Virus record (IMG/VR): IMGVR_UViG_3300037487_000895
Location: 1-27,362 of that record
Direction: 5' to 3' (one strand)
Length of the DNA: 27,362 nucleotides
Origin: a virus
A model generated the notes under the pieces. That model ran no database searches. It was given only the letters and a program-made list of their open reading frames with translations, and had not been told where the DNA came from. Both the position numbers and the translations under genes were made by a program. Shown in pieces: positions 1,598-26,333 of the stretch. The first letter of the stretch is position 1, and each line of letters opens with the position of its first letter.

Positions 1598-1798
1598 ATG
1601 TATATACAAAATATAGATATCATAAAATCAAAAAAATTAGAATGTAATAAAATTATTTCCGATTATTTGGTGTCTCGGAGCATTCCTTTATTGAGTAGAC
1701 AGGGGGAAATTTATATATTTAGTTTTACTGATATAGTAGAGGAATTAATACAGAATATTCCGAAGAAATTGAAGAAGGAGGGTTATAAAATCATATGA
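1598..1798 (+). CDS. Hypothetical small protein, 66 aa
   Basis: ATG at 1598 follows the ferritin stop by four bases, with AAAGGGG upstream. The stop overlaps the start of the protease gene (ATGA at 1795-1798), so the two are probably translationally coupled. The protein has an Ile/Lys-rich N-terminus, a central short beta-like stretch (GEIYIFSF) and a basic C-terminal helix. I recognise no family. Its place next to the protease suggests a head-related role, as inference only. Confidence 0.65.
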   Translation: MYIQNIDIIKSKKLECNKIISDYLVSRSIPLLSRQGEIYIFSFTDIVEELIQNIPKKLKKEGYKII

Positions 1799-3372
1799 CA
1801 AAATTAAAGTTTGCAGTAGAAGATTATGAAATTGAAGAAAATCCCTCTTCTCAATTCGCATTGTTGAATATGAAAATTGTTTCCAGTGGAATGAATGCCC
1901 ATAAACTCCCTATAACAGTTGAGGCAGTAAAAAAATCTGCCTCCAGTTTATTTGGAAAGCCTGTTCTCGCTAATTATTTAGAAGATGAAGAAAAGTTGGG
2001 CGGTCATGATAAAACGGAAATACCCATAGGAACATTCCTAGATACAAATGTTGAAATAACTGAAGAAGATGGAAGAACATGGTTAAGTTCAAAAGCGTGG
2101 ATATGGAAGCGTTATTTTCCTCATATAATGGATGTATTCAAGAAAGACGGGGGGAAAACAAATATATCCATGGAGATGGAAGTAACGGATAGTGGGTTTG
2201 AACTAGATGGATTTGAATGGATTAAGTCATTTGATTTTTTGGGTGTAACGGCAATTGGAATATCTCCGGCCATTTTTGGAAGCGGAGCAACCGTACTTCA
2301 ATTTTCCAAACTAAAAGATTTAGCCCAACGAGAATTTTCAAACAAATATGAAGATATTGATTTTACCGTTCCCGAAAAGATAAAGGAATGGTGCAACAAA
2401 GGTTTGTCTTACTCCAAAAAAGGAGGTGGTCATTCTGTCTCTTTAGCTGTCGCAAGACATCTAATTAATAATAATGTTGCTTCTCCTCAAAAAATTTTAC
2501 AAATGAAAAAGTTTTTTGATAGAAATAAGGATTTTCAATTTGAGGAATCTGAAAGTCCAGATATCAAACAAATTTCATATATGCTCTATGGGGGAAATCT
2601 AGGAAATAAATGGTCGAATGATGTTTGGATGTCAATGAAAGAAATCGATGATAAAAAATGCTCATTCTTTTCAGATGAGTTTTTTAATTTAAATAAGGAG
2701 GAAGAAGAAGGTATGAAGAAAACTATAGATTCTGCCGCCCCTCCACTAAAAGAAGACGAAGAGAAAGAGGAAATGTCTGCTGAAAGTGGTGAAGAAAAAG
2801 AAGAACCAAAGCAAGAAGAAAAAATGTCAGAACAAAAACCAGATGAAGTTGAAACGCCCGAAGAAGATAAGAAAGAAAGCAAAGAAGATGAGAAAAAAGA
2901 AGAAATGAGCTTAAATGCATATGCCGATGTTGCGGCATTTCTTTCATATTTAGAAAGCGAAACAGAAGAACATGAAACAATGTCTCAGATGTTTTCATCC
3001 AAGGAAGTTTCTCCTGAGAAAATGTATTCTGCTTTTGCTTCATTGGCTAAGAAGTTCTGTAATCAGAAAATGGAAATGGAATCTTTAAAGAAATTTAAAG
3101 CCGAAGTTGAAGAAAAAGAATTTGCTGAAAAAGTTAAAGCATCCATTAATCAGGTATATTCAGTCTTAACAAAAGAAGAACTGGAATCTCAGGTTGAAGA
3201 GTCAAAGAAATTTACTTTGGCTACTTTCTCTGAATGGGACAAAACTTTGAAAGCGTTTGCTTTTGACAGTTCTAAAAATAAGAAGACGGAAAAGAAACAA
3301 GAAGAACATATTCATGTTCCTTTTGAGAATCTTATGAAAAAATCAACCACAGAAAAATATCTGTGGAAATAA
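1795..3372 (+). CDS. Prohead protease fused to scaffold-like domain
   Basis: This 525-residue protein has three parts. Residues about 20-170 resemble phage prohead serine proteases of the herpesvirus-assemblin/U35 fold: His71 lies in GGHDKTEIPIG, like the H...PIG catalytic region, and Ser125 in NISMEM fits the nucleophile strand, followed by a G-x-S-P strand at 154-158. Residues about 192-277 match a domain I know from phage head proteins (GL-x-Y/W...G.G.S...ARHL...S...K...FF.R...YGG..G..W), function unclear. Residues 300-525 are Glu/Lys-rich and coiled-coil prone, as in scaffolds. The protease would trim the scaffold and itself during capsid maturation. Start ATG 1795 has AAGGAGGG upstream. 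The decoration and capsid genes follow. Confidence 0.8.
   Translation: MTKLKFAVEDYEIEENPSSQFALLNMKIVSSGMNAHKLPITVEAVKKSASSLFGKPVLANYLEDEEKLGGHDKTEIPIGTFLDTNVEITEEDGRTWLSSKAWIWKRYFPHIMDVFKKDGGKTNISMEMEVTDSGFELDGFEWIKSFDFLGVTAIGISPAIFGSGATVLQFSKLKDLAQREFSNKYEDIDFTVPEKIKEWCNKGLSYSKKGGGHSVSLAVARHLINNNVASPQKILQMKKFFDRNKDFQFEESESPDIKQISYMLYGGNLGNKWSNDVWMSMKEIDDKKCSFFSDEFFNLNKEEEEGMKKTIDSAAPPLKEDEEKEEMSAESGEEKEEPKQEEKMSEQKPDEVETPEEDKKESKEDEKKEEMSLNAYADVAAFLSYLESETEEHETMSQMFSSKEVSPEKMYSAFASLAKKFCNQKMEMESLKKFKAEVEEKEFAEKVKASINQVYSVLTKEELESQVEESKKFTLATFSEWDKTLKAFAFDSSKNKKTEKKQEEHIHVPFENLMKKSTTEKYLWK
2695..2715 (+). promoter_or_regulatory. Internal ribosome binding site for a nested scaffold
   Basis: AAGGAGG at 2695-2701 precedes an in-frame ATG at 2713 (codon 307 of the protease gene) by 11 bases, at the exact junction between the protease part and the charged scaffold-like part. 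The spacing is slightly long, and the purine-rich run could also arise from Glu/Lys codons. The layout parallels the lambda C/Nu3 arrangement. Confidence 0.5.
2713..3372 (+). CDS. Putative nested capsid scaffold protein, 219 aa
   Basis: Translation from the internal ATG at 2713 would give the C-terminal 219 residues of the protease-scaffold polyprotein. The product begins MKKTIDSAAPPL, continues as a Glu/Lys-rich low-complexity stretch, then forms helical coiled-coil segments rich in Lys, Glu, Met and Phe. This composition is typical of phage scaffolds. In lambda and relatives a free scaffold is made from an internal start in the protease gene, and I infer the same here. The strict alternative is that only the fusion is made. 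Confidence 0.45.
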   Translation: MKKTIDSAAPPLKEDEEKEEMSAESGEEKEEPKQEEKMSEQKPDEVETPEEDKKESKEDEKKEEMSLNAYADVAAFLSYLESETEEHETMSQMFSSKEVSPEKMYSAFASLAKKFCNQKMEMESLKKFKAEVEEKEFAEKVKASINQVYSVLTKEELESQVEESKKFTLATFSEWDKTLKAFAFDSSKNKKTEKKQEEHIHVPFENLMKKSTTEKYLWK

Positions 3373-3966: not shown

Positions 3967-5085
3967 ATGATTCGTTTACCTAATAACGTCCTCGCTTTCA
4001 GCGGTGGAAAAACAACTGTGTATGAACAGTTTGTTGATTACTACAATCATGCCCAATCCGCAAACGGTGCAAAGGGGCGCACCTATAGTTTCCAGGATAA
4101 GAAAGAAGATGGAACTCTAATTTCATTTTCTGAAAAAGAAAATGCCATGAATGAGGCTCTAAAATTTGAAATCATGCGCGTTGCTGGTCTTACCAGCCTT
4201 GATGGTTTCCCTCTTGAGACCTGGCAGTCACATCCTACGTTGAAGTGGGCTACCTTCGCTATCGTCTCGGCTATGATTGACATGATTCTTCCCGATGCCC
4301 TGCTTCAGAGCACAGGTATTTATGCTGATGTTCGTGGTATTGGCTTTGGGGATTCTGCTTCATTCGAAGTTAAGCCCCGTGACCTTTTTGTTGTTTCTAA
4401 GGGTGGCCTGACCAAGAGAACAGCAGAAATTCAGAAGCAGTTTAACGGCCAAGTTACAATTCTCCCCGAAATGAGACAGTTGAGCGTTGAAGTTTCGTTG
4501 TATAAAGTTCTCGCTGGTAAAGAAAGTCTTTCTGATTTTGTTGCGAAGGCAGTTAAGTCAATGGAAGTTGCTGTTGCCACCGATGTTTATACTACGTTCA
4601 ATACCGCTATGGGCGTTCTTGACAATGCTGGCGATGACCTTCTTCGTGTTGCTGGCTATACTCAGGCTGATTTGATTGGTTTAGGTCAAAAGGTTACTGC
4701 TTGGAATGGCGGAAGTAAAGCGGTTATTATCGGTACTCAGCTTGCTCTTCAGAACATTCTTCCGAGTGATGCTAACTATCGCTATACTTTGGAAAGTGAC
4801 TATGTTAAACTTGGGTACATCCAGAACGTATTTGGTTTTGATGTGATGCTGTTACCCCAAGTTGCTGATTATAGCACTCCATTTAAGACTCTTTTGGATG
4901 ACACTCGCATTTATATTGTGTCTCCTTCAGTCAACAAATTGGTGAAAGTTGTTCTTGAAGGTTCGACTCTCAGTAATGTTGATGCCCCGTATGCTAACGC
5001 CAATCTTAGCCAGAGTGCTACGTTGTGGAAATCTTGGGGAACTGGGATTGCAACAAACGCCGTCGCCGCTTTGATTGACATGTAA
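3967..5085 (+). CDS. Major capsid protein (HK97-fold type)
   Basis: This 372-residue protein directly follows protease, scaffold and decoration genes, as major capsid genes do. It has a helical N-terminal third, a central beta and spine-helix region, and a stretch around KAVIIGTQLALQNI (A-domain-like) typical of HK97-fold capsid proteins. A 3' hairpin at 5091-5131 follows. There is a strong ribosome binding site (TTGGAGGA) before ATG 3967. Codon use is GC-richer than in the surrounding genes, as expected for the most abundant virion protein. No obvious protease cleavage site can be named by eye, although the N-terminus may be trimmed by the adjacent protease. Confidence 0.85.
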   Translation: MIRLPNNVLAFSGGKTTVYEQFVDYYNHAQSANGAKGRTYSFQDKKEDGTLISFSEKENAMNEALKFEIMRVAGLTSLDGFPLETWQSHPTLKWATFAIVSAMIDMILPDALLQSTGIYADVRGIGFGDSASFEVKPRDLFVVSKGGLTKRTAEIQKQFNGQVTILPEMRQLSVEVSLYKVLAGKESLSDFVAKAVKSMEVAVATDVYTTFNTAMGVLDNAGDDLLRVAGYTQADLIGLGQKVTAWNGGSKAVIIGTQLALQNILPSDANYRYTLESDYVKLGYIQNVFGFDVMLLPQVADYSTPFKTLLDDTRIYIVSPSVNKLVKVVLEGSTLSNVDAPYANANLSQSATLWKSWGTGIATNAVAALIDM

Positions 5086-5090
5086 AAATA

Positions 5091-8063: not shown

Positions 8064-8816
8064 ATGGAAAACTTTCACATTAATAGTTTTATTTTTGATG
8101 AACCTTATGAGTATTCTGGACTTAAGTTTCATCCTGTAAGACTCAGAGACTATTTATTGTTCATCAACGCGATAGATTGTTTGTTGATAGACAAAAATAG
8201 CATACCAGATGCTAAAATTATTTCAATGAGTTATATGGAATATCTACTACTGAGTTCAAATGAAGAAAATGGTAATATTGAAAAACTATTTGCTCTTCTC
8301 TCCATTTGTTTGAAAATAGATTTCAAAGAGATTAAGATAATAGAGAATGAAAATAAAAAGTTGATACTTTATCTATCTGGTGTAGAAATAAATTCTGATG
8401 GCTTTGAAAATATAAAAAGAATCATATTGGAACAAAATTCTGTTGACGTACCTGACTACAGCATACAAAAAGAAATAAGAGACAGAATAGAAGAAGGTAA
8501 AAGAATGAGTTCTAGGGGCGGAGCAAAAATGGCATCATTTGAAGACCAAATTGTTTCTTTGTCTGTAGCAAGCGGGATTCCAATGGAACAAATCTATGAT
8601 ATGACATGTAGGAAATTCTTGAAATCCATTTCAAGAATGGATTTATTAATTCACTATAAGATATATTTACAAAGCTCTTTATCAGGCATGATTACATTCA
8701 AAGATACCAATTTTATAAAACATTGGTTGACGCAAGCAAAAGACGATAAAGATGATAATGGTCTTTTGGAATTGGATGCTGTGAAAGATAAGATGAACTT
8801 CAAAGATAAAAAATAA
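8064..8816 (+). CDS. Hypothetical protein upstream of tail tube
   Basis: This 250-residue helical protein starts at ATG 8064, six bases after the previous stop and with only a weak ribosome binding site, suggesting coupling. It has an N-terminal mixed domain (1-135) and a strongly patterned helical domain at about 155-225 (SLSVASGIPMEQIYDM, RKFLKSISRMDLLIHYKIYLQ) that looks like a conserved phage family. There are no catalytic or metal motifs. Its place before the tail tube gene suggests a role in tail assembly. I cannot name the family. Confidence 0.6.
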   Translation: MENFHINSFIFDEPYEYSGLKFHPVRLRDYLLFINAIDCLLIDKNSIPDAKIISMSYMEYLLLSSNEENGNIEKLFALLSICLKIDFKEIKIIENENKKLILYLSGVEINSDGFENIKRIILEQNSVDVPDYSIQKEIRDRIEEGKRMSSRGGAKMASFEDQIVSLSVASGIPMEQIYDMTCRKFLKSISRMDLLIHYKIYLQSSLSGMITFKDTNFIKHWLTQAKDDKDDNGLLELDAVKDKMNFKDKK

Positions 8817-12526: not shown

Positions 12527-12973
12527 ATGAAAGAATATACGATAATTATAAATAATTATGTTTTGGGAGAATATAGTAAATATTATTTTAGTAAGTATCC
12601 TAAGAGGAGAGTTTTGCCGATAAAGAAACCCATTCCTCCATCGTTTAACTACTTTACGTCCATAAAAAGAATTGTTCAAAACGCATTAAAACAAAATTAT
12701 AAAGAGTTTTCAATTTGGCTGGCAAGCTATTATAATGTTGCTAATCTCAATTTAGATAAAGCAGAATTTACATATACATTTTATTTTCCAGACCATCGGA
12801 GAAGAGATGTTGATAACTTACTGCTTACGCCAAAGTTTATAAATGATGGACTAGTGGAAGCGGGGGTTTTAGTTGATGATAACGGAGAAAATTTGAGATT
12901 GATGTTCAATCCCTTTCAGTATGATAAATTAAATCCGAGAGTTGAATTTATTATTAGGGATATGAGAGTGTGA
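12527..12973 (+). CDS. RusA-like Holliday junction resolvase
   Basis: This is a 148-residue protein. Residues 84-120 carry the RusA signature: a strand followed by R-R-R-D94-V-D96-N-L-L, then N-D107-G-L-V-E-A-G-V-L-V-D117-D118. RusA enzymes are dimeric, metal-dependent endonucleases that cut Holliday junctions symmetrically, using these aspartates. It starts at ATG 12527 with AAAAGGAGA upstream. Phage resolvases debranch DNA before packaging or support recombination. Finding it between neck-like and tape measure genes, instead of in a replication module, is unusual. The pairing with the recombinase downstream suggests a shared DNA-processing role. Confidence 0.85.
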   Translation: MKEYTIIINNYVLGEYSKYYFSKYPKRRVLPIKKPIPPSFNYFTSIKRIVQNALKQNYKEFSIWLASYYNVANLNLDKAEFTYTFYFPDHRRRDVDNLLLTPKFINDGLVEAGVLVDDNGENLRLMFNPFQYDKLNPRVEFIIRDMRV

Positions 12974-12974
12974 T

Positions 12975-13916
12975 ATGAGAGAAAAAATTAGTGGAATATA
13001 TTGTATTGAGAATCTAATTAATGGTAAAAAATATGTCGGTAGAGCAAAAGACATATATCAAAGATGGAGAGGACACCGAAGTGATTTAAACAAGAAAATA
13101 CATAAAAATCATTATCTCCAAAATTCTTGGAATAAGAACGGAGAGGATAGTTTCAAGTTTTATATATTGGAAAAATGTATGAACGAAGAATGCAAAGAAA
13201 AAGAAATATATTATATAGAAAAATTGGAATCATTATCTTTAAAAAACGGATACAACTTAACAAGAGGCGGAGACGGACTAAGTGGTGCGACAGAGGAAAC
13301 AAGAAAGAAACTATCTGTTTTTAGAACAGGAATGAAATATAGTGATGAAGTGAAAGCAAATATATCAAAAGCAGGAATGGGAAGAATTGTTTCTGAAGAA
13401 ACCAGAAAGAAAAAATCGATTTCGATGACTGGTAAATTTCATTCAATTGAAACTATTTTAAAAATATCCAATTCTAAAATCGGACATGTAGTAACAGATG
13501 ATACTAGGCAAAAAATATCGGAATCCAATAAGAATAAACCTAGAAATTTCTCCAAAGAGTATATGATTAGGCTAAAAGAAAATTTTATGGGAGCAAATAA
13601 TCCTAACTACGGTAAACCTATGAGACAGGAAACAAAAGATAAAATGATTGCAACCAAGTTAAAAAACAGGAAACCTAAGCCGCCGAAAAAAACGAAAAAA
13701 GAATTAAGAGACGCCAGGAATTTTACAAGTTCCTTTTGGGGTGTTTCTTATAGAAAAGATAAGAAAAAATGGAGGTCTTATTTATTTTTAAATAAGACGC
13801 AAATAAACTTAGGGGTTTTTAAAAAAGAAATAGATGCCGCAATCGCATACGATGAATATATAGTTTTCAATCAAATCAATAAGGAATTAAACTTTCCAGA
13901 AAGGAGCATGAGATGA
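12975..13916 (+). CDS. GIY-YIG homing endonuclease with NUMOD3 and AP2-like domains
   Basis: This 313-residue protein has an N-terminal GIY-YIG nuclease: G7-I-Y, Y20-V-G, Arg30, Glu77 in KEIYYIEKL, and GYNLTRGGDG. About four NUMOD3-type repeats follow (EETRKKLS, SDEVKANISKA, SEETRKKKS, TDDTRQKIS) and bind DNA. The C-terminal part, from about 250, is AP2/ERF-like (GVSYRKDKKKW, INLGVFKKEIDAAIAYD, LNFPE). It is a free-standing mobile gene: it starts one base after the resolvase stop with no good ribosome binding site and ends in an ATGA overlap with the recombinase gene. It probably cuts a related phage allele lacking the insert. Confidence 0.9.
   Translation: MREKISGIYCIENLINGKKYVGRAKDIYQRWRGHRSDLNKKIHKNHYLQNSWNKNGEDSFKFYILEKCMNEECKEKEIYYIEKLESLSLKNGYNLTRGGDGLSGATEETRKKLSVFRTGMKYSDEVKANISKAGMGRIVSEETRKKKSISMTGKFHSIETILKISNSKIGHVVTDDTRQKISESNKNKPRNFSKEYMIRLKENFMGANNPNYGKPMRQETKDKMIATKLKNRKPKPPKKTKKELRDARNFTSSFWGVSYRKDKKKWRSYLFLNKTQINLGVFKKEIDAAIAYDEYIVFNQINKELNFPERSMR
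13900..13915 (+). promoter_or_regulatory. Ribosome binding site embedded in GIY-YIG gene end
   Basis: AAAGGAG at 13900-13906 lies in the last codons of the endonuclease gene (Pro-Glu-Arg-Ser) and is six bases from ATG 13913 of the recombinase. The insert therefore supplies the start signal of the gene it precedes. Confidence 0.7.
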
Positions 13917-14911
13917 CAAGACAGACATACCGAAAAGTAATAGTGACACAAGAACTCCTTGAAAAAATAAATCCAATTAACAAGAAGTTGGTTGACCGAT
14001 TCCTAAAAGAGAAGGCTACAAGAACAAGCCCAAACACGATAAAAAACTATCGTTCTTGTGCTAATATTTTCTTTGTTTGGAATCTTATACATAATGACAA
14101 TAAATCATTTGTGGAAATTAGGAAGTTGGAATTTTCCGATTTTTTTTCTTACACGGTTGAAGAACTTAAATGGGGTTCAGCCAGAAATAATGGAGCGAGA
14201 AGTTTCCTATCTTCGATGTCGGCTTTCATTGAAAAATTTCTGGATAGTGAATATCCCAATTTCAAAAATATTGTTTTAAAAACAATAGAAAGTGTTCCAA
14301 GAGAAGCAAGAAGAGAAAAAACTATATTAACTGATGAACAGGTAGAAAACTTATTGAAATATCTATCTGAAAAAGATTCTCAAAAAGCATTATGGGTTGC
14401 GTTGGCAGTTTACTCTGGTTCTCGTTTTGCAGAACTTCTTAGATTTACAACGGAAAATATAGATATAAATAATTTAGCATTCGGAGACCTTTTCTTGGAA
14501 ACCAAAGTTAAAATAAAAACAAAGGGACGCGGAAGAGAAGGAAAAATGTTATTTAAGTATATTCTTCGTGAAAAATTCCTTCCCTACTATGAGGCATGGT
14601 TAGCTGAACGCGAAAAGATAATGGTAAAAAATAATAAAAGTCATACCCAGATATTTATCAAAGAAAGCGATGGGGAACCCGCTTCAGAGGCAACAGTTCG
14701 TTCTTGGGTTAAGACAATTGAAACCTATTTGGGTATTTCATTTTATCCGCACTGTCTGCGGCATTTCTTGGTTACAGAGTTGGCTAAGAAAAAAATTCCC
14801 ACAATACTTATTAAGGATTTATTCGGCTGGTCTAGTTTAGAAATGGTTAATATTTACGACGACTCGACAAGCAAGGATAAGGTCTGGTCGGAACTTGAAA
14901 ACTTAAGATAA
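13913..14911 (+). CDS. Tyrosine recombinase (phage integrase family)
   Basis: This 332-residue protein has an N-terminal SAM-like core-binding domain (about 25-125, S-P-N-T-I-K-N-Y) and a C-terminal catalytic domain. Catalytic residues are Arg171 (SGSRFAELLRF), a lysine near 204, His280-x-x-Arg283 (PHCLRHFLVTEL), Trp306 in place of the second His (accepted in this family), and nucleophile Tyr315 (VNIYDD). Such enzymes cut and join DNA at specific sites for integration, inversion or dimer resolution. It overlaps the GIY-YIG stop by ATGA. No excisionase, repressor or attachment site is visible nearby, so a role in lysogeny is not supported by this window; resolution of genome multimers or DNA switching are alternatives. 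Confidence 0.88.
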   Translation: MTRQTYRKVIVTQELLEKINPINKKLVDRFLKEKATRTSPNTIKNYRSCANIFFVWNLIHNDNKSFVEIRKLEFSDFFSYTVEELKWGSARNNGARSFLSSMSAFIEKFLDSEYPNFKNIVLKTIESVPREARREKTILTDEQVENLLKYLSEKDSQKALWVALAVYSGSRFAELLRFTTENIDINNLAFGDLFLETKVKIKTKGRGREGKMLFKYILREKFLPYYEAWLAEREKIMVKNNKSHTQIFIKESDGEPASEATVRSWVKTIETYLGISFYPHCLRHFLVTELAKKKIPTILIKDLFGWSSLEMVNIYDDSTSKDKVWSELENLR

Positions 14912-14984: not shown

Positions 14985-15928
14985 ATGGCAAATAGTGAGG
15001 AGTTTATGGTTGCTGTAAAAGCAGTAATCAATAAAGTTGATAATTCAATTCTTAAAAATAGAACAGAAACAATTAAACTAAAATTTTTAATAAATGAAGA
15101 TGCTATAAAAGAAGCCCAGAAAAGAATAGTAATAGCGGAAGCAAATTTAAATAAAATAAAACAAATGGGTGCTTTGGGTGTTATGTCTGGACGAACGCCT
15201 TTCGGGAGCGGAGATAAGGCACTAAAGGAATTAAATGCGGCAACCAATCAATATAATAGAGCAATGGTTCAAAAAGCGAAATTGACCGCTCAAGACATAG
15301 ACAATACCAACAAACAAACAAATGTCCACAAAACATTTGCTAGTGGTCTGCAAAGTTCTATCACCAGAATTGCTCAATATGCAATTGCTTCCGGTGTTCT
15401 GTATTCTGCTTTAGCTGAATTGAGAAAACAAATTCAATTTATTATTGATTTAAATAAAGAGATGACCAACATTCAAATTGTTGGTGGATATTCAAAAGAG
15501 CAAGTTCAACAAATGGCTAAGGGATATAATGAACTCGGCAGAGAAATGGGTGTTAGTACGTTAGCTATCGCTCGCGGAAGTTTAGAGTTTATTCGGCAGG
15601 GAAAGACCGCTGAAGAAACAGCAATATTAATCAAGAACTCAACAATGATGAGTAAGCTTGGTAATATGGAAGCCGCTCAATCTTCAGAAGCTTTAACAGC
15701 TATTATGAACGGTTATAATATGACTGTCGAAGAAACCGGAGATGTTGTGTCAAAGCTGGTTACGCTCGACAATAATTTTGCGAGTAGTGTAGAAGAGATA
15801 TCTACGGCTATGAGATATGCTTCTTCATCTTCGAAGCAAGTAGGAATCGATTTCGACCACCTTGCGGCGTACATTACGGTAATCTCGGCAAAAACTCGGC
15901 TCCCGGCTGAGTCTATAGGACAATCCTT
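14985..15928 (+). CDS. Tape measure protein, exon 1
   Basis: ATG 14985 has a strong ribosome binding site (AAAGGAGG). The exon encodes about 314 residues with helical coiled-coil segments and a region from about 105 onward typical of phage tape measure N-terminal domains (AIASGVLYSALAEL, KEMTNIQIVGGYS, AARG-like repeats, DFDHLAAYITVISAKTRLPAESIGQS). The homologous reading continues only at 17453, and in between lie an in-frame TAA (15939-15941) and an intron with its own ORF. I place the splice site after T15928. The tape measure fixes tail length and passes through the tail tube during DNA ejection. Without splicing only a 318-residue truncated protein could be made. Confidence 0.8.
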
Positions 15929-17452
15929 CCCCCTTCAATAAAGGGCAGAGGCAATTGGGAATAAAACATAATCCCAATATGAAAATTTTCTTTAATGATT
16001 TTATTTCTTATCCCATGAGAAATAAATGTTCCGAAGAGCCTGTGGTGGGCAAACGGAGTAGAAGGTATGTGATTATAAAACATAAAAAGGAGAAATAAGA
16101 TTGAAGAAATTCAATAGAAAATGCAAAGAATGTAATAAAAGTTTTATAGCAATGAATGTTCAAAAAGTTTTTTGTTCAAATGCTTGTAGGGTCAGGAATT
16201 CAAAGAAAAACAACCTGAAAGACCATAATCATATTTGCGAACAATGCGGAATTTCTTTTGTTAATCAAATTAAAAAAACTAGATTTTGCTCCCATATCTG
16301 TACAGGAGTTTACAAAAACAGTAAGGGAACTGGGAAATATTTTAACTGTAAGGAATGCAATAAAAAATTCAAACAGAAACATGGTAGACATTTTTTCTGT
16401 TCTAATAGATGCAAATCCTTATTTGGGATAAAAAACACGGAAAAAGTTACTGTCGCTTGTTCGAATTGCGGTTGCGATATAATAAGAGACATATATGATG
16501 CAAGAAAAGATAAGAACTTTTTCTGCACTCGAAAATGCGAATCAACATTCAGGGAAAATAAATCTAATCAACTTAGAATCTGTGAATTTTGTAAAAAAGA
16601 ATTTAAATGTAAAAAACATGACAAACTTAGATTCTGTTCGATGAGTTGTCAATCTGAATGGCAAAAATTAACTGGCTTTGGTAAAAACCATCCTTCATAT
16701 AAACACGAAATAACGGATAAAATTAGAATCAAGAAATGTGAATGTTGTGGGAAGGATATGATTGGAACACCAAGAAGATTTGAAACAAATAGATATTGCT
16801 CATATTCTTGTAAAACAAAGTCTAATCCGAGAACAATGAGTTTTCCACACTTAGAAGTCATAAGAATATTAAAAGAACTCAACGTAAAACAGGAATCGGA
16901 AGTAGAGTTAGAAAGATATTCGATTGATTGTCAAATAACCAACTCCAATTTGATGATAGAAGTTATGGGGGGTTTTTGGCATTGCGATAATAGATTATAT
17001 GATTCTCCAGTGAGTGATATACAAACAAAGTCAATTAAAAGAGATGCGAAAAAGAAAGAAAGAATATTATCAAATGGATTTATTCCAATATACATTTGGG
17101 AGAAAGATATAGTTGAAAACTACGATGTTTGTAAGAAACTAATATCTTATTTTATTGAGAGAAATGGGAAGCTCAATAATTATAATTCAATGAATTATGA
17201 ATTGATAAATGGAAAATTAAAATTAAGAAATAAAATTTTAGTTCCATTTTTTGAAAAACAAAAATAATCACACACCACTATTAACGACTGAACAAGAAAA
17301 TTCCATTGTTAAATGGAAATGCAACAGTCTGAACTGCGACTATAAAACCAATGAACGAGAAATCGCAGAGAATAGGTCAAGTGTTAAGACACTTTAAAGA
17401 AGCACCTATTCCGCTACTTAAAATAAAAAGTAGTCATAAAAGTAACAGAATG
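15929..17452 (+). mobile_element. Group I intron in tape measure gene
   Basis: Boundaries of 1524 bp are inferred. Exon 1 ends in U (15928), the intron would end in G (17452), and joining gives an open 1266-codon frame with the expected ESIGQS-LKTI context. A possible P1 pairs CCTT (15925-15928) with GAGG (15948-15951), with an extension CCCTT/AAGGG (15931-15935/15941-15945). Further stems are ATTGGGA/TCCCAAT (15954/15972), TTCCATT/AATGGAA (17301/17312), GAATAGGT/ACCTATTC (17370/17404) with an inner AAGTGT/ACACTT, and CTACTT/AAGTAG (17414/17428). GACTA 17338-17342 and TAGTC 17431-17435 could form P7. A full core was not folded. It encodes a homing endonuclease. Confidence 0.75.
16101..17267 (+). 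CDS. Intron-encoded EDxHD homing endonuclease with six zinc knuckles
   Basis: This 388-residue protein starts at TTG 16101, eight bases after AAAAAGGAG. Residues 8-237 hold six CxxC...CxxxC units (starting at Cys8, 47, 83, 120, 161 and 213), a DNA-recognition array. Residues 245-340 match the Vsr-like EDxHD nuclease family: Glu252 (HLEV), Asp276 (SIDCQ), His294 (GFWH) and Asp315 (KRDAKKK), then a final strand PIYIWEKD. EDxHD enzymes such as I-Bth0305I, encoded in a phage recA intron, cleave intron-less alleles to spread the intron. Here the target would be the uninterrupted tape measure gene. All key residues are present, so the enzyme is probably active. Confidence 0.85.
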   Translation: MKKFNRKCKECNKSFIAMNVQKVFCSNACRVRNSKKNNLKDHNHICEQCGISFVNQIKKTRFCSHICTGVYKNSKGTGKYFNCKECNKKFKQKHGRHFFCSNRCKSLFGIKNTEKVTVACSNCGCDIIRDIYDARKDKNFFCTRKCESTFRENKSNQLRICEFCKKEFKCKKHDKLRFCSMSCQSEWQKLTGFGKNHPSYKHEITDKIRIKKCECCGKDMIGTPRRFETNRYCSYSCKTKSNPRTMSFPHLEVIRILKELNVKQESEVELERYSIDCQITNSNLMIEVMGGFWHCDNRLYDSPVSDIQTKSIKRDAKKKERILSNGFIPIYIWEKDIVENYDVCKKLISYFIERNGKLNNYNSMNYELINGKLKLRNKILVPFFEKQK

Positions 17453-20309
17453 AAAAACTATAGAAATGAGAATGGTTGCCATCAAAAATATGAAGGCTTT
17501 CGATGAAGAGGGTGAAGCAATTAACAAAGTTGAAGCATCTTTGCAAGGTGTCGGAATATCACTAAGAGATTCCAATGGCGGCTTTAGAGATATGCAAGAT
17601 GTTATTGGAGAAGTAACGAAAAATTGGAGTTCTTTCAGTAGAGAAAATCAAATTTTTATCGCGCAACAATTGGGAGGAGTAAGGCAAGCCGACAAGGTAC
17701 TCGCGTTACTGGGTTCCCAACTTGAAATTGAAAAAGCATTAAGAGTAGAAAAAGAATCCGCCGGACTCGCAGAAGAACGATATAAAATATACCTAGAAAG
17801 TATTGAAGCGGCACAAGGAAGATTTGTGGCAACATGGGAAGAACTTGCTCAAAGCGGAGCTACTTCTGATATAGTCATCGGGTTTTATGATTTATTGACA
17901 ACAATTTTAGAAGTGGTAAATGCCATTGGAGGATTGAAAGCAGTTCTTATTTTAGCTACAACTGCTTTTGTTGTTTTTAATTCTGCTACAATAGGCTCTG
18001 GAATTGCTGGATTTCTTTCTCTTGTTCAAACTATAGCTACAATATATATTCCTGTTTTGATATCAGAATTGAATGGTGCAACAATAAGTCAATGGTTATT
18101 AAATGCGGCAATGGCGGCCAATCCAGCCACAATAGTCGTTAGCGCATTGGCTTTACTTGCTGGAACGCTTGCTATAGTCGCAATCAATAGTGAATCAGCA
18201 AGCGAAAAAATGGAAAGATTAAATGCCGTTATTTCAGACTACACAAAAGAATTAGATGATTTAAATTCGAAAAAGAAATCGATTGAAGACCTGAAAAAAG
18301 AATATGATGACTTAAATAAAATAACGGGAAAAACAACTCAACAAACAGAAGATTTTACAAAAGTTCAAAATGACTTAAAGGCTCTTGTTCCGTCAATATC
18401 AGGAGATTTTGACGATTATGGAAATTTTCTCTTTACTGCCAAAACCAATATGGAGAATTTGACTTCAGCAACACAAAGTCAGATTGACGCATTGAAAGCA
18501 TTGGACGCAGAAAAGGCTAAGGGGGCGGCAACAGATTTAGCGAAGTCTCTTTTGGAGCAACAGATAGAATCTACAAAGCCTCAAGGAGCATTGAAGGGAC
18601 AAGAAGAATTGAATATTCCTGCTTGGTTAAAACCAAGCACTCCAATTGGAGGAATGGAAAAAGAAAAAGAAGCATTAAGAAACGAAATGAACTTGGAATT
18701 GGCACAAGCTAACGCTGATTGGGTAAATCAATTAGAATCAATGAAGACTACGTTTAGCAATTGGGGAAAAATTGGTGCGAAAGAGGCGCAATTAAACTTC
18801 ATTAAAGAATTAAATATGTCTGAGGCGGGAAGAAAATTAGTAAAAGATGTGTTTGAACCAATGCTCAATAATGTTCAAGAAAAACTAAACGAGAATCCAT
18901 TAGCGATACCACCTCTCGATACCTCCAAGGTCGTATCCGAAGAATCAAAAGCGGCTTTTGACGAAATCTTAAAAGATACAATTAACATGCTCAAGCAGAT
19001 TGCAAATGCCAAGAAAGATGCTTTGCAACTGGAATTGAAAAATCTAAATGAATTAAACGAAAAACAAAAGGATTATTATAGATTCCAGCTTGACAAAATT
19101 AAAAACGTAAACGAAGAAAAGAAGATAGCTATTGAAAGAGAGATAGATGCTCAAAACGAACTCTATGATTCACAGAAAAGAGCCATAGAAGAACAATTAA
19201 GTGCTTATGAAAAAATAATCGATAGCCAACAAGAAAGTCTTCGTTTAAAAAAAGAAGAAACAAATTACAACAACACAAAAGCAGAAAAAGAAAAGAAACT
19301 AGCCGACTTATTAACTCAAATAGAAATATTGAAATTAGACAATAGTTCAGAAGCAATAGCGAAAAGACTCCAACTTGAAGAACAAGCCGCACAATTAGTG
19401 GGGGAAATGGGAGAAGATGCGGCTGATAGAGAATATGAACTTCAACAACAAGCCTTAGAAGCGGAAAAACAAAGAGTTAAAGAAGAGGCGGAATTAAGAT
19501 TACGAGAAATTGAAGAAAATCAAAGACAGTATGAATTAGGCGCAAAACTCAGGGAACAAGAAATTGAGGATGAAAATAGAGCCGCAGAACGAAGATACGA
19601 GATAATTATCACAGGATTAGACGGGGAATATAATTCCAAGAAATTGAGTCTCGAAAACCAAATATCCCAAATAGATACTTATCTAAGTCAAGAAGGTTTA
19701 ATAAGAAAAGAAGCGTTAGATAGAATGAAAGCAGACAATACTTCTTTATATGAAGAATTATTAGCGTGGAACAAACTATATGGAACGGGAATAGATGAAG
19801 ACATTATAAATCGATGGGATTTGGCAAAACAAGCTTTGGAGGAATACAAAAACAAGTTAAGTGAGGTTGCCAATGTCCTAAATGACATGGGAGATGTTCC
19901 TGGTACTGGTGAGGGTGGCGATTCTCGTCTGATTATTCCAGGAGACGACCCAGGAACAGTAACACACCCTCGTCATAGCGGAGTTAAAACTGGTTTTGTT
20001 GGAGGAGTTTCAAAATTAAAATCCAATGAAGAGTTTGCGAAACTATTAAAAGGAGAATTGGTTTTAACAGAAGAACAAATGAATAAATTCATGATAGGTA
20101 CTCTCCCCTCTTTAATGGGAGCACCCTCGTTTTCATCTAATGCTTCTGGTGGAAATATTTCTGTTAATATGCCGATAAATGTTTCAGGAAACCTAGACTC
20201 AAGTGTTATACCAGATATAAAAAAGATAAGTGAAAGAGTTATGGCAGAAATAAATTCGGCTATGATACAGAGGGGATTCAATAGACGAGCCGATGCATTT
20301 TCAATTTAA
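17453..20309 (+). CDS. Tape measure protein, exon 2
   Basis: Exon 2 begins at 17453 (third base of the split Leu codon); the ATG at 17466 is internal and lacks a ribosome binding site. It continues the conserved N-terminal domain (NKVEASLQGVGISLRDSNG, FIAQQLGGVRQADKVLALLG), then hydrophobic membrane-like helices (about 17880-18190), then a long coiled coil (about 18200-19880). The Gly/Pro-rich end includes RHSGVKTGFVGG and LLKGELVLTEEQMNKFM, a motif common at tape measure C-termini. Spliced length is 1266 residues. At roughly 1.5 angstrom per residue this implies a tail near 190 nm. Stop TAA 20309; the next gene follows closely. Confidence 0.85.
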
Positions 20310-21623: not shown

Positions 21624-22388
21624 ATGAATCAATCTGGTATTTACTCTATTGAAAATAAAATAAATAAAAATAAATACATTGGAAAATCCATAGAACCGAA
21701 CAATAGGTGGTATAAGCATATATCAAAACTAAGAAATAATAATCATGAAAATCAATATCTCCAAAATGCCTGGAATAAATATGGAGAGGAAAACTTTAAA
21801 TTTTGCATAATAGAAGAATGTGAAAAATTATATTTATCTGAAAGAGAAATATATTATATAAAAAAACTAAATACGAAAAGACCCAATGGATATAATTTGA
21901 CCGATGGAGGAGATGGATTATTAGGGAGAAAGGTTTCTAAAAAGACAAGGGAAAAAATGAGCAAAAAAAGAAAAATTAGACTTTCTAATCCGAAAAATCA
22001 TCCTATGTATGGAAAAAAACATTCGGAAAAGGCAAAGAAAAAGATGTCCTTATCTCATAAAAATATATCAATAGCAACAAGAAAAAAAATGTCAAATAGC
22101 GCAAAGGGAAACTCTTCCCACTTGGGATATCCCCGCTCTGAAGAAACAAAGAACGGATTAAGACAAAAAGCAATTGGTTCAAAGCATAAAAATGCAACAA
22201 GTATTTTTTCTGGAGTTGCATGGGATTCTTTTAATAAAAGGTGGATAGTCTCCATATGGAATAAAAAAAAAGAGCATATAGGAAGATTTGAAGATGAGAA
22301 AATTGCATCTTTCGCTTATGATGATAGATGCTTTGAAATATATGGAGATTTATCTAAATTAAATTTTCCTGAAAGGATGGCTGAATGA
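21624..22388 (+). CDS. GIY-YIG homing endonuclease with NUMOD3 and AP2-like domains
   Basis: This 254-residue protein has G5-I-Y, K-Y-I-G, Arg28 (NNRWYKH), Glu in SEREIYYIKKL and GYNLTDGGDG, all parts of a GIY-YIG active site. NUMOD3-like Lys/Ser-rich repeats (SKKTREKMS, SEKAKKKMS, ATRKKMS, SEETKNGLR) follow. A C-terminal AP2-like domain has GVAWDSFNKRW, HIGRFEDEKIASFAYD and LNFPER. It shares architecture with the genes at 12975 and 25482 but has diverged in sequence. No ribosome binding site precedes ATG 21624, so expression is probably low and coupled to the Dit gene. Its TGA overlaps the tail-hub ATG. Confidence 0.9.
   Translation: MNQSGIYSIENKINKNKYIGKSIEPNNRWYKHISKLRNNNHENQYLQNAWNKYGEENFKFCIIEECEKLYLSEREIYYIKKLNTKRPNGYNLTDGGDGLLGRKVSKKTREKMSKKRKIRLSNPKNHPMYGKKHSEKAKKKMSLSHKNISIATRKKMSNSAKGNSSHLGYPRSEETKNGLRQKAIGSKHKNATSIFSGVAWDSFNKRWIVSIWNKKKEHIGRFEDEKIASFAYDDRCFEIYGDLSKLNFPERMAE
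22372..22387 (+). promoter_or_regulatory. Ribosome binding site embedded in second GIY-YIG gene
   Basis: AAAGGA (22372-22377) lies within the last codons (Pro-Glu-Arg-Met) of the endonuclease, seven bases before ATG 22385 of the tail hub gene. This is the same arrangement as at 13900. Confidence 0.65.
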
Positions 22389-25481: not shown

Positions 25482-26333
25482 ATGGTTTCAAAATATTACG
25501 AGTATCAATTTTCCGGAATATATTCTATAAGAAACACAATTAATAATAAAGTGTATATTGGAAGTTCTAAAAATATTCACCTAAGAATGCTTCATCATAG
25601 ATATGAATTAGAAAGCAATTGCCATCATTGTGATTACTTCCAAAAATCTTTCAATAAATATGGAATTAATAATTTCAAGATAGAAATACTTGAGAAAATC
25701 GATTTGAATATTTTTAATGAAGATTATTTATATGAAAGGGAAAAATACTATATTAATTTATATAATTCAGCCGATTCTAGATTTGGATATAATATGACAA
25801 CTGGGGGAAAAGGAAGGGCGGGGATTCCAATGTCTAAAAAGATAAAAAAGGCATTGAAAGAAGGAAAGAAGCCCGTAAGTGAAATAACCAGAAAGAGAAT
25901 CTCCGATGCTGGAAAAGGAAGAAAACATACAGCGGAAACAAAAGAAAAAATGTCGAAGTCTAGAAAGGGTGTCTTCCAATGGTGGAATATGAAAGGTCAG
26001 AAGAAAAACTTAAGCGAAGAAGAAAGAAAAAAGATAGGGGATAGAACAAGGGGAATTCCTAGAACTATGGAACAGAAACTAAAAAGTTCTAAATCAAGTA
26101 GGGGAATAAAGAAATATCCAAATGGGACAAAAACATCGAGTGAATATACCGGTGTTTCAAAAATGAAGAATAGAAAAAAATGGAACGCCTACATTCAAAT
26201 CAATTTTAAAAGAGTTCATTTAGGATATTTTGAAAATGAAATAGACGGGGCACTTGCCTACAATAGGAAAGCACTAGAAATATATGGGAAAGATGCCAAA
26301 ATAAATAATATAAAAAAGGAGATAAATATATGA
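25482..26333 (+). CDS. GIY-YIG homing endonuclease with NUMOD3 and AP2-like domains
   Basis: This 283-residue protein has a GIY-YIG core with G12-I-Y, V-Y-I-G-S, an Arg in HLRMLHH, Glu in YEREKYYINLY and GYNMTTGGKG. NUMOD3-like repeats (SEITRKRISDAGKG, TAETKEKMSKSRKG, SEEERKKIGDR) and a C-terminal AP2-like domain (GVSKMKNRKKW, VHLGYFENEIDGALAYN) follow. It is the third free-standing member of its type in the window. No ribosome binding site is visible before ATG 25482. It ends in an ATGA overlap with the next tail gene. The N-terminal extension of about five residues differs from the other two. Confidence 0.9.
   Translation: MVSKYYEYQFSGIYSIRNTINNKVYIGSSKNIHLRMLHHRYELESNCHHCDYFQKSFNKYGINNFKIEILEKIDLNIFNEDYLYEREKYYINLYNSADSRFGYNMTTGGKGRAGIPMSKKIKKALKEGKKPVSEITRKRISDAGKGRKHTAETKEKMSKSRKGVFQWWNMKGQKKNLSEEERKKIGDRTRGIPRTMEQKLKSSKSSRGIKKYPNGTKTSSEYTGVSKMKNRKKWNAYIQINFKRVHLGYFENEIDGALAYNRKALEIYGKDAKINNIKKEINI
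26316..26332 (+). promoter_or_regulatory. Ribosome binding site embedded in third GIY-YIG gene
   Basis: AAGGAG (26316-26321) lies in the last codons (Lys-Lys-Glu) of the endonuclease gene and eight bases before ATG 26330 of the next gene, completing a threefold pattern. Confidence 0.7.

Follow-up and report, generated by a model that had tools for sequence, protein, structure and literature searches.

The window, that is, the whole 27,362-bp IMG/VR virus record, carries a tape measure protein (TMP) gene in two pieces, and all features of the interrupted gene given below lie on the plus strand. The upstream frame spans 14985-15941, its stop codon ending at the 13th base counted from 15929, and the downstream frame (17466-20309) begins about 1.5 kb past that stop. 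The Pfam domain PhageMin_Tail (PF10145) is divided over both frames, with profile positions 5-138 matching the first (8e-22) and 153-201 the second (1e-3), and the PHROG profile for the tail length tape measure protein matches 17466-20309 at 2e-37; the gene is thus recognised as a tape measure gene by both the PhageMin_Tail domain and a tape-measure profile. When 15929-17452 (1,524 nt, i.e. 3 x 508) is removed in silico, exon 1 (14985-15928), whose open frame otherwise runs on to the stop ending at 15941 within the removed segment, and exon 2 (17453-20309) form a TMP frame of 3,801 nt, or 1,266 codons, with a single terminal stop. The joined sequence, ...AESIGQSLKTIEMRMVAIKNMKAFDEEGEAINKVEASL..., reads AESIGQS-L-KTIEMRM, and the predicted ligated exon junction connects ...CAATCCTT to AAAAACTATAG.... 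The start of exon 1 (14985) is preceded by AAAGGAGG and that of the ORF within the removed segment by AAGGAG, whereas no purine-rich ribosome-binding site was found upstream of the first ATG of exon 2 (17466). An earlier note on this DNA had given the same frames, stops and restored 3,801-nt frame, and all its coordinates proved correct, as did its statements that removal of 15929-17452 restores the phase and that exon 2 lacks a ribosome-binding site. Its further claim that splicing would be needed to make the TMP is likewise supported.

The segment between the two TMP frames encodes a protein of 388 aa (16101-17267), with a TTG start at 16101 and the ribosome-binding site AAGGAG at 16087-16092. 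Its N-terminal part is an array of tandem Cys-pair zinc-finger-like units, presumably serving in DNA binding, and its C-terminal part is an EDxHD/Vsr-type nuclease domain. The nearest solved structure is that of I-Bth0305I, which we take to come from a recA intron. A profile of eight homologues matched this structure (PDB 3r3p, 8.5e-7) as well as Vsr endonucleases, at about residues 236-342 of the profile, and the AlphaFold model of the ORF product (mean pLDDT 80, pTM 0.42) matched 1vsr, 1cw0 and 3r3p, with a Foldseek E of 6e-4 and a TM score of 0.81 on the target. Residues E287, H294, D315 and E334 are invariant in the eight homologues, and the catalytic fold together with these conserved acidic and histidine residues places the protein among EDxHD (Vsr-like) homing endonucleases, an assignment made from fold and from conservation among the homologues. 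PHROG assigns the ORF to HNH/homing endonuclease families; the HNH label was set aside because profile and fold indicate EDxHD/Vsr. A tblastn search of phage records with the endonuclease returned nothing. One relative, in locus L002 (3334-5087; also in L003), lies between apparent intein halves in a dUTPase-like gene, which suggests that the same nuclease family has moved between introns and inteins; L002, L003 and L004 do not carry their relatives in introns of the kind found in the window.

Within 15929-17452, the elements of a group I intron could be assigned one after the other. P1 (15925-15951) pairs the exon bases CCUU (15925-15928) with the internal guide GAGG (15948-15951), placing a U15928.G15948 pair at the splice site, and encloses an inner hairpin (15931-15935/15941-15945). 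It is followed by the P2 hairpin AUUGGGA/UCCCAAU (15954-15978), by the 5' strand of P3, UUUUCUU (15986-15992), and by an extra hairpin in the P3-P4 interval (16000-16026) that is present too, as judged by eye, in relatives L120, L100, L103 and L134. By-eye comparison with relatives also gave P4-P5 (16029-16058), with P4 formed by UUCCG (16029-16033) and CGGA (16054-16057), P5 by 16038-16041/16047-16050, and the A-rich joining segments J4/5 (AAGA) and J5/4 (AAA); compensatory differences occur here in L120, L100, L103, L115, L099 and L134. The endonuclease ORF sits in the loop of P6, whose strands (16057-16076 and 17264-17282) share a 9-bp core UGUGAUUAU/AUAAUCACA, the 3' strand overlapping the ORF stop codon (17265-17267). 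Downstream come the 5' strand of P7 with the R element AACGACUG (17286-17290), the 3' strand of P3, AAGAAAA (17294-17300), the P8 hairpin UUCCAUU/AAUGGAA (17301-17318), J8/7 (AUGCAA, 17319-17324) and the 3' strand of P7 with the S element (17325-17329). The region 17334-17434 comprises P9 (17334-17339/17363-17368), P9.1 (17370-17411), which carries the motif GUCAAGUGUNAAGACACUU at 17376-17394, and P9.2 (17413-17419/17428-17434). The intron ends in a terminal G (omega G, G17452); many relatives end in GUAACAGAAUG or similar, those at the same site in the same phase. A first P7 candidate, GACUA at 17338 with UAGUC at 17431, was dropped in favour of 17286-17290/17325-17329 after comparison showed that its bases belong to P9 and P9.2, and two alternatives for P3 (UUUCUU, 16004-16009, and UGUU, 16027-16030) were rejected by the positional rule described below. 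We found no P10 helix with exon 2.

The relatives on which the comparison rests were reached through the 3' end of the intron. BLASTN with this part matched an unannotated gut phage record (MT835481.1), the match ending exactly at the proposed 3' splice base, and the 19-base motif common to both introns is the P9.1 hairpin; with the 5' part, phage records yielded weak short matches only. Scanning IMG/VR with the 19-base motif gave 60 loci, and all readable ones have the same 3' domain except L086, which was discarded as a chance occurrence of the motif. A covariance model of the 3' domain (R1), built from 47 relatives with the window left out, matched the window at 17281-17408 with 114.8 bits (E 4.7e-22), the runner-up scoring 15 bits. 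R1 found no second intron of the same class across the window. On the same 47 sequences, RNAalifold predicted P7, P8 and P9 unprompted and with covariation. In P7, the final pair is A-U in 22, G-C in 22 and U-A in 3 relatives, and the next one is U-A in 46 and C-G in 1. Since the loci were chosen by the P9.1 motif, which the window shares, the P9.1 hairpin provides no independent support, whereas P7, P8 and P9 do. P3 was examined by a fixed positional rule, which pairs the seven bases preceding U[AG]AU with the seven bases starting three past the 5' strand of P7. With the 5' strand picked by position in this way, all seven pair in 17 of 21 loci and six in another two, whereas random re-pairing of strands gave a mean of 1.9 and a maximum of 8 in 10,000 trials. 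In the window, UUUUCUU and AAGAAAA pair at all seven positions across the ORF. Covarying P7 and P8, together with P3 as given by the rule, make up the pseudoknotted P3-P7-P8 core of group I introns.

Stock Rfam models were silent at this locus. RF00028 did not match the window, either at the gathering threshold or up to E 10, and Rfam as a whole gave only snoRNA-like chance matches there up to E 10. RF00028 was equally silent up to E 10 in the ORF-less relative L099, and a scan of 30 relative loci at the gathering threshold matched none of their class introns, its two matches there (in L131 and L134) lying outside them. The silence is likely due in part to the length of the ORF in the P6 loop (about 1.2 kb), too great for a covariance model to bridge easily, and in part to a limit of RF00028 itself, as ORF-less relatives are missed too. 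The Rfam check proposed in the earlier note was negative with the stock models, an outcome that the note had named among its refuting conditions, whereas R1, built from relatives, matched strongly. The two kinds of model meet in the TMP gene of the gut phage (MT835481.1, locus L085), which has two group I introns of different lineages, at L085:799-1157 and at about 1795-3075. The former is Rfam-positive (75 bits), and the latter is of the window class, contains an endonuclease ORF and shares the 3' end of the window intron. On the Rfam-positive intron, R1 and RF00028 assign P7 to identical residues (GACUA/UAGUC), which ties the class to known group I introns. The window intron has the P3-P4-P5-P6-P7-P3'-P8-P7' order and the R and S elements in common with RF00028 members, but it and the scanned ORF-less members go unscored by that model.

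The insertion site itself is shared. Seven phages (the window, L120, L100, L115, L112, L103 and L133) have the same TMP codon interrupted after its second base, the split codon being L, F or M before KT or RT, and L112, L115, L120 and L133 align with the window TMP as far as residue 315. All seven introns retain a U.G pair at the 5' splice site, with compensatory changes in P1 (CCUU/GAGG, GCCUU/GAGGC, GCCCU/GGGGC and AGCAU/GUGCU). The codon, phase and U.G pair seen in six other phages thus provide independent support for the splice sites, and the U and G that the earlier note had expected at the intron ends are indeed there (T15928 and G17452); together with the R1 match and the covariation, the same-site relatives support its group I reading and its boundaries. 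A further locus, L114, is nearly identical to L100 and has the same 5' site, its contig ending before exon 2. Homologues of the window endonuclease occur at this 5' site in L120 (56% identity) and in L100, L114 and L115 (36-37%), and a further one (29%) in L088, where the TMP is interrupted near the same site, whereas the intron of L112 is empty, i.e. without an ORF. A comparison with homologues that have no intron at this position, as the earlier note had recommended, showed uninterrupted TMP sequence there in L101 and L085. The TMP intron of L147 lies about 9 nt upstream and was not counted.

The locus could also be read as a TMP made as two separate proteins, with the middle ORF as a free-standing endonuclease gene between them, given that three complete frames are present and that apparently free-standing GIY-YIG genes occur elsewhere in the window. 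This is very improbable, as a single Pfam domain is cut by the break, exon 2 lacks a ribosome-binding site, a covarying group I core is formed by the flanking DNA and homologues run continuously over the site. We consider it just as unlikely that the intron has decayed and lost the ability to splice, leaving the TMP inactive in this genome. Splicing is read here from an IMG/VR DNA contig, but the core helices are all preserved, the reading frames of the two exons and of the endonuclease are open, and the 3' domain of the window scores slightly above those of relatives at TMP sites (114.8 bits against 107.8 for L103 and 103.5 for L088). Some other intervening element has a negligible chance of being correct, for although the endonuclease relative in the apparent intein of L002 means that the nuclease alone is no proof of a group I intron, no Rfam group II match was obtained up to E 10, an intein and translational bypassing face a positively identified group I core, and the in-frame stop that ends at 15941, ahead of the middle ORF, rules out an intein.

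We are thus highly confident that the TMP gene is interrupted by a mobile group I intron encoding a homing endonuclease, while splicing itself is something we infer. The element would have inserted at one TMP codon, between ESIGQS-L and KTI (residue 315), with its endonuclease gene in the P6 loop. As judged from the anatomy and covariation, the RNA would fold after transcription and a guanosine would attack after U15928, which is paired with the guide G15948; the freed exon end would then attack after G17452, giving joined exons and a TMP of 1,266 aa. Translation of the endonuclease would start from a separate ribosome-binding site within the intron, and in co-infections the enzyme would cut intron-less TMP alleles, into which the intron would be copied. 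Ribosomes translating exon 1 would terminate within P1 (15939-15941) and ribosomes on the endonuclease ORF within P6, so that translation and splicing probably hinder one another.

Directly upstream of the TMP gene, at 12527-14911, the tail module contains three consecutive genes, for a RusA-like resolvase, a GIY-YIG/NUMOD3 endonuclease and a tyrosine recombinase; this is an unusual place for an integrase. The window has three apparently free-standing GIY-YIG/NUMOD3 endonuclease genes in all, at 12975-13916, 21624-22388 and 25482-26333.

Beyond the shared site, TMP homology adjoins 34 of 74 motif-bearing sites, on both sides in 13, which is an indication only, since the sites were selected by one motif and compared with one TMP query. 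A scan with exon-2 peptides gave 80 TMP loci, and R1 was run on most of these together with L002-L004 and L085. Among the 67 loci so searched (from exon-2 peptides, endonuclease relatives and the first BLASTN match), only L085 has a class intron, which means that the class is uncommon among TMPs overall. In L104, three R1 matches (1072-1185, 1631-1719 and 2023-2143, minus; 92.7, 36.8 and 40.4 bits) fall within a stretch of about 1 kb in a single TMP region, which suggests that this TMP gene has at least three introns. Class introns by TMP-like sequence also occur in Paenibacillus genome contigs (L147:6743-6761; L153:4176-4194 and 5072-5090), which are probably prophages. At L099:5441-5564 and L087:159-282 (minus), the 5' exon resembles, by reading, an anaerobic ribonucleotide reductase, and the class therefore probably extends beyond TMP genes. 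A viral contig that bears a class intron, L113, contains in addition an Rfam RT-2 RNA (8288-8537, 128.8 bits).

The earlier note had called an intron in a tape measure gene less expected, which holds only in part. The TMP gene of Vibrio phage ICP1 has three introns whose splicing was verified by RNA-seq and RT-PCR, and TMP has been termed a frequently interrupted gene (PMC10448857); introns in TMP genes, with homing endonucleases, are therefore already known. The two systems are alike in that the TMP gene is split by introns, one of them with a homing endonuclease inside, but ICP1 differs in the number of its introns, three, and in the HNH-3 type of its nuclease (PMC10448857), whereas the window nuclease is of the EDxHD type. 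R1 did not recognise the ICP1 TMP intron region, which probably belongs to a different intron lineage. I-Bth0305I, an EDxHD homing endonuclease (PMC3943268; 3r3p is entitled 'Mobile intron protein'), resembles the window protein in catalytic-domain profile and fold, but the latter has the long N-terminal Cys-pair array and sits in a TMP intron. In the introns of Staphylococcus phage Twort at 16.8-17.6 kb, probably orf142, a tail tube gene according to PMC11878797, R1 aligned marginally (E 0.07-0.4) to P7-like pairs, but the P9.1 motif is absent from the aligned stretches.

Routine annotation of the window would give two truncated tape measure genes, and recognising the intron restores the protein that sets tail length. 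The same-site set, with filled, empty and intron-less alleles and different endonucleases, forms a natural series for homing into an essential late gene. Given the ICP1 precedent, the added interest is modest and lies in an intron family that RF00028 misses and that is found repeatedly in a structural gene. A 2025 survey based on Rfam and GISSD models (PMC11878797) raised the question of why only genes of nucleotide and DNA metabolism are colonised by introns, and pointed out that the available models do not fully cover phage introns; an Rfam-invisible family found beside TMP homology bears on this question. We tentatively suggest, as a possible rather than a probable reading, that these introns form an uncatalogued, distinct phage group I lineage, with a highly conserved P9.1 (a feature that was selected for), apparently no P7-P3 helix and no visibility to RF00028, which has repeatedly homed into late structural genes and above all into one TMP codon. 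If this were true, the impression that phage introns reside mainly in DNA-metabolism genes would be partly a detection bias.
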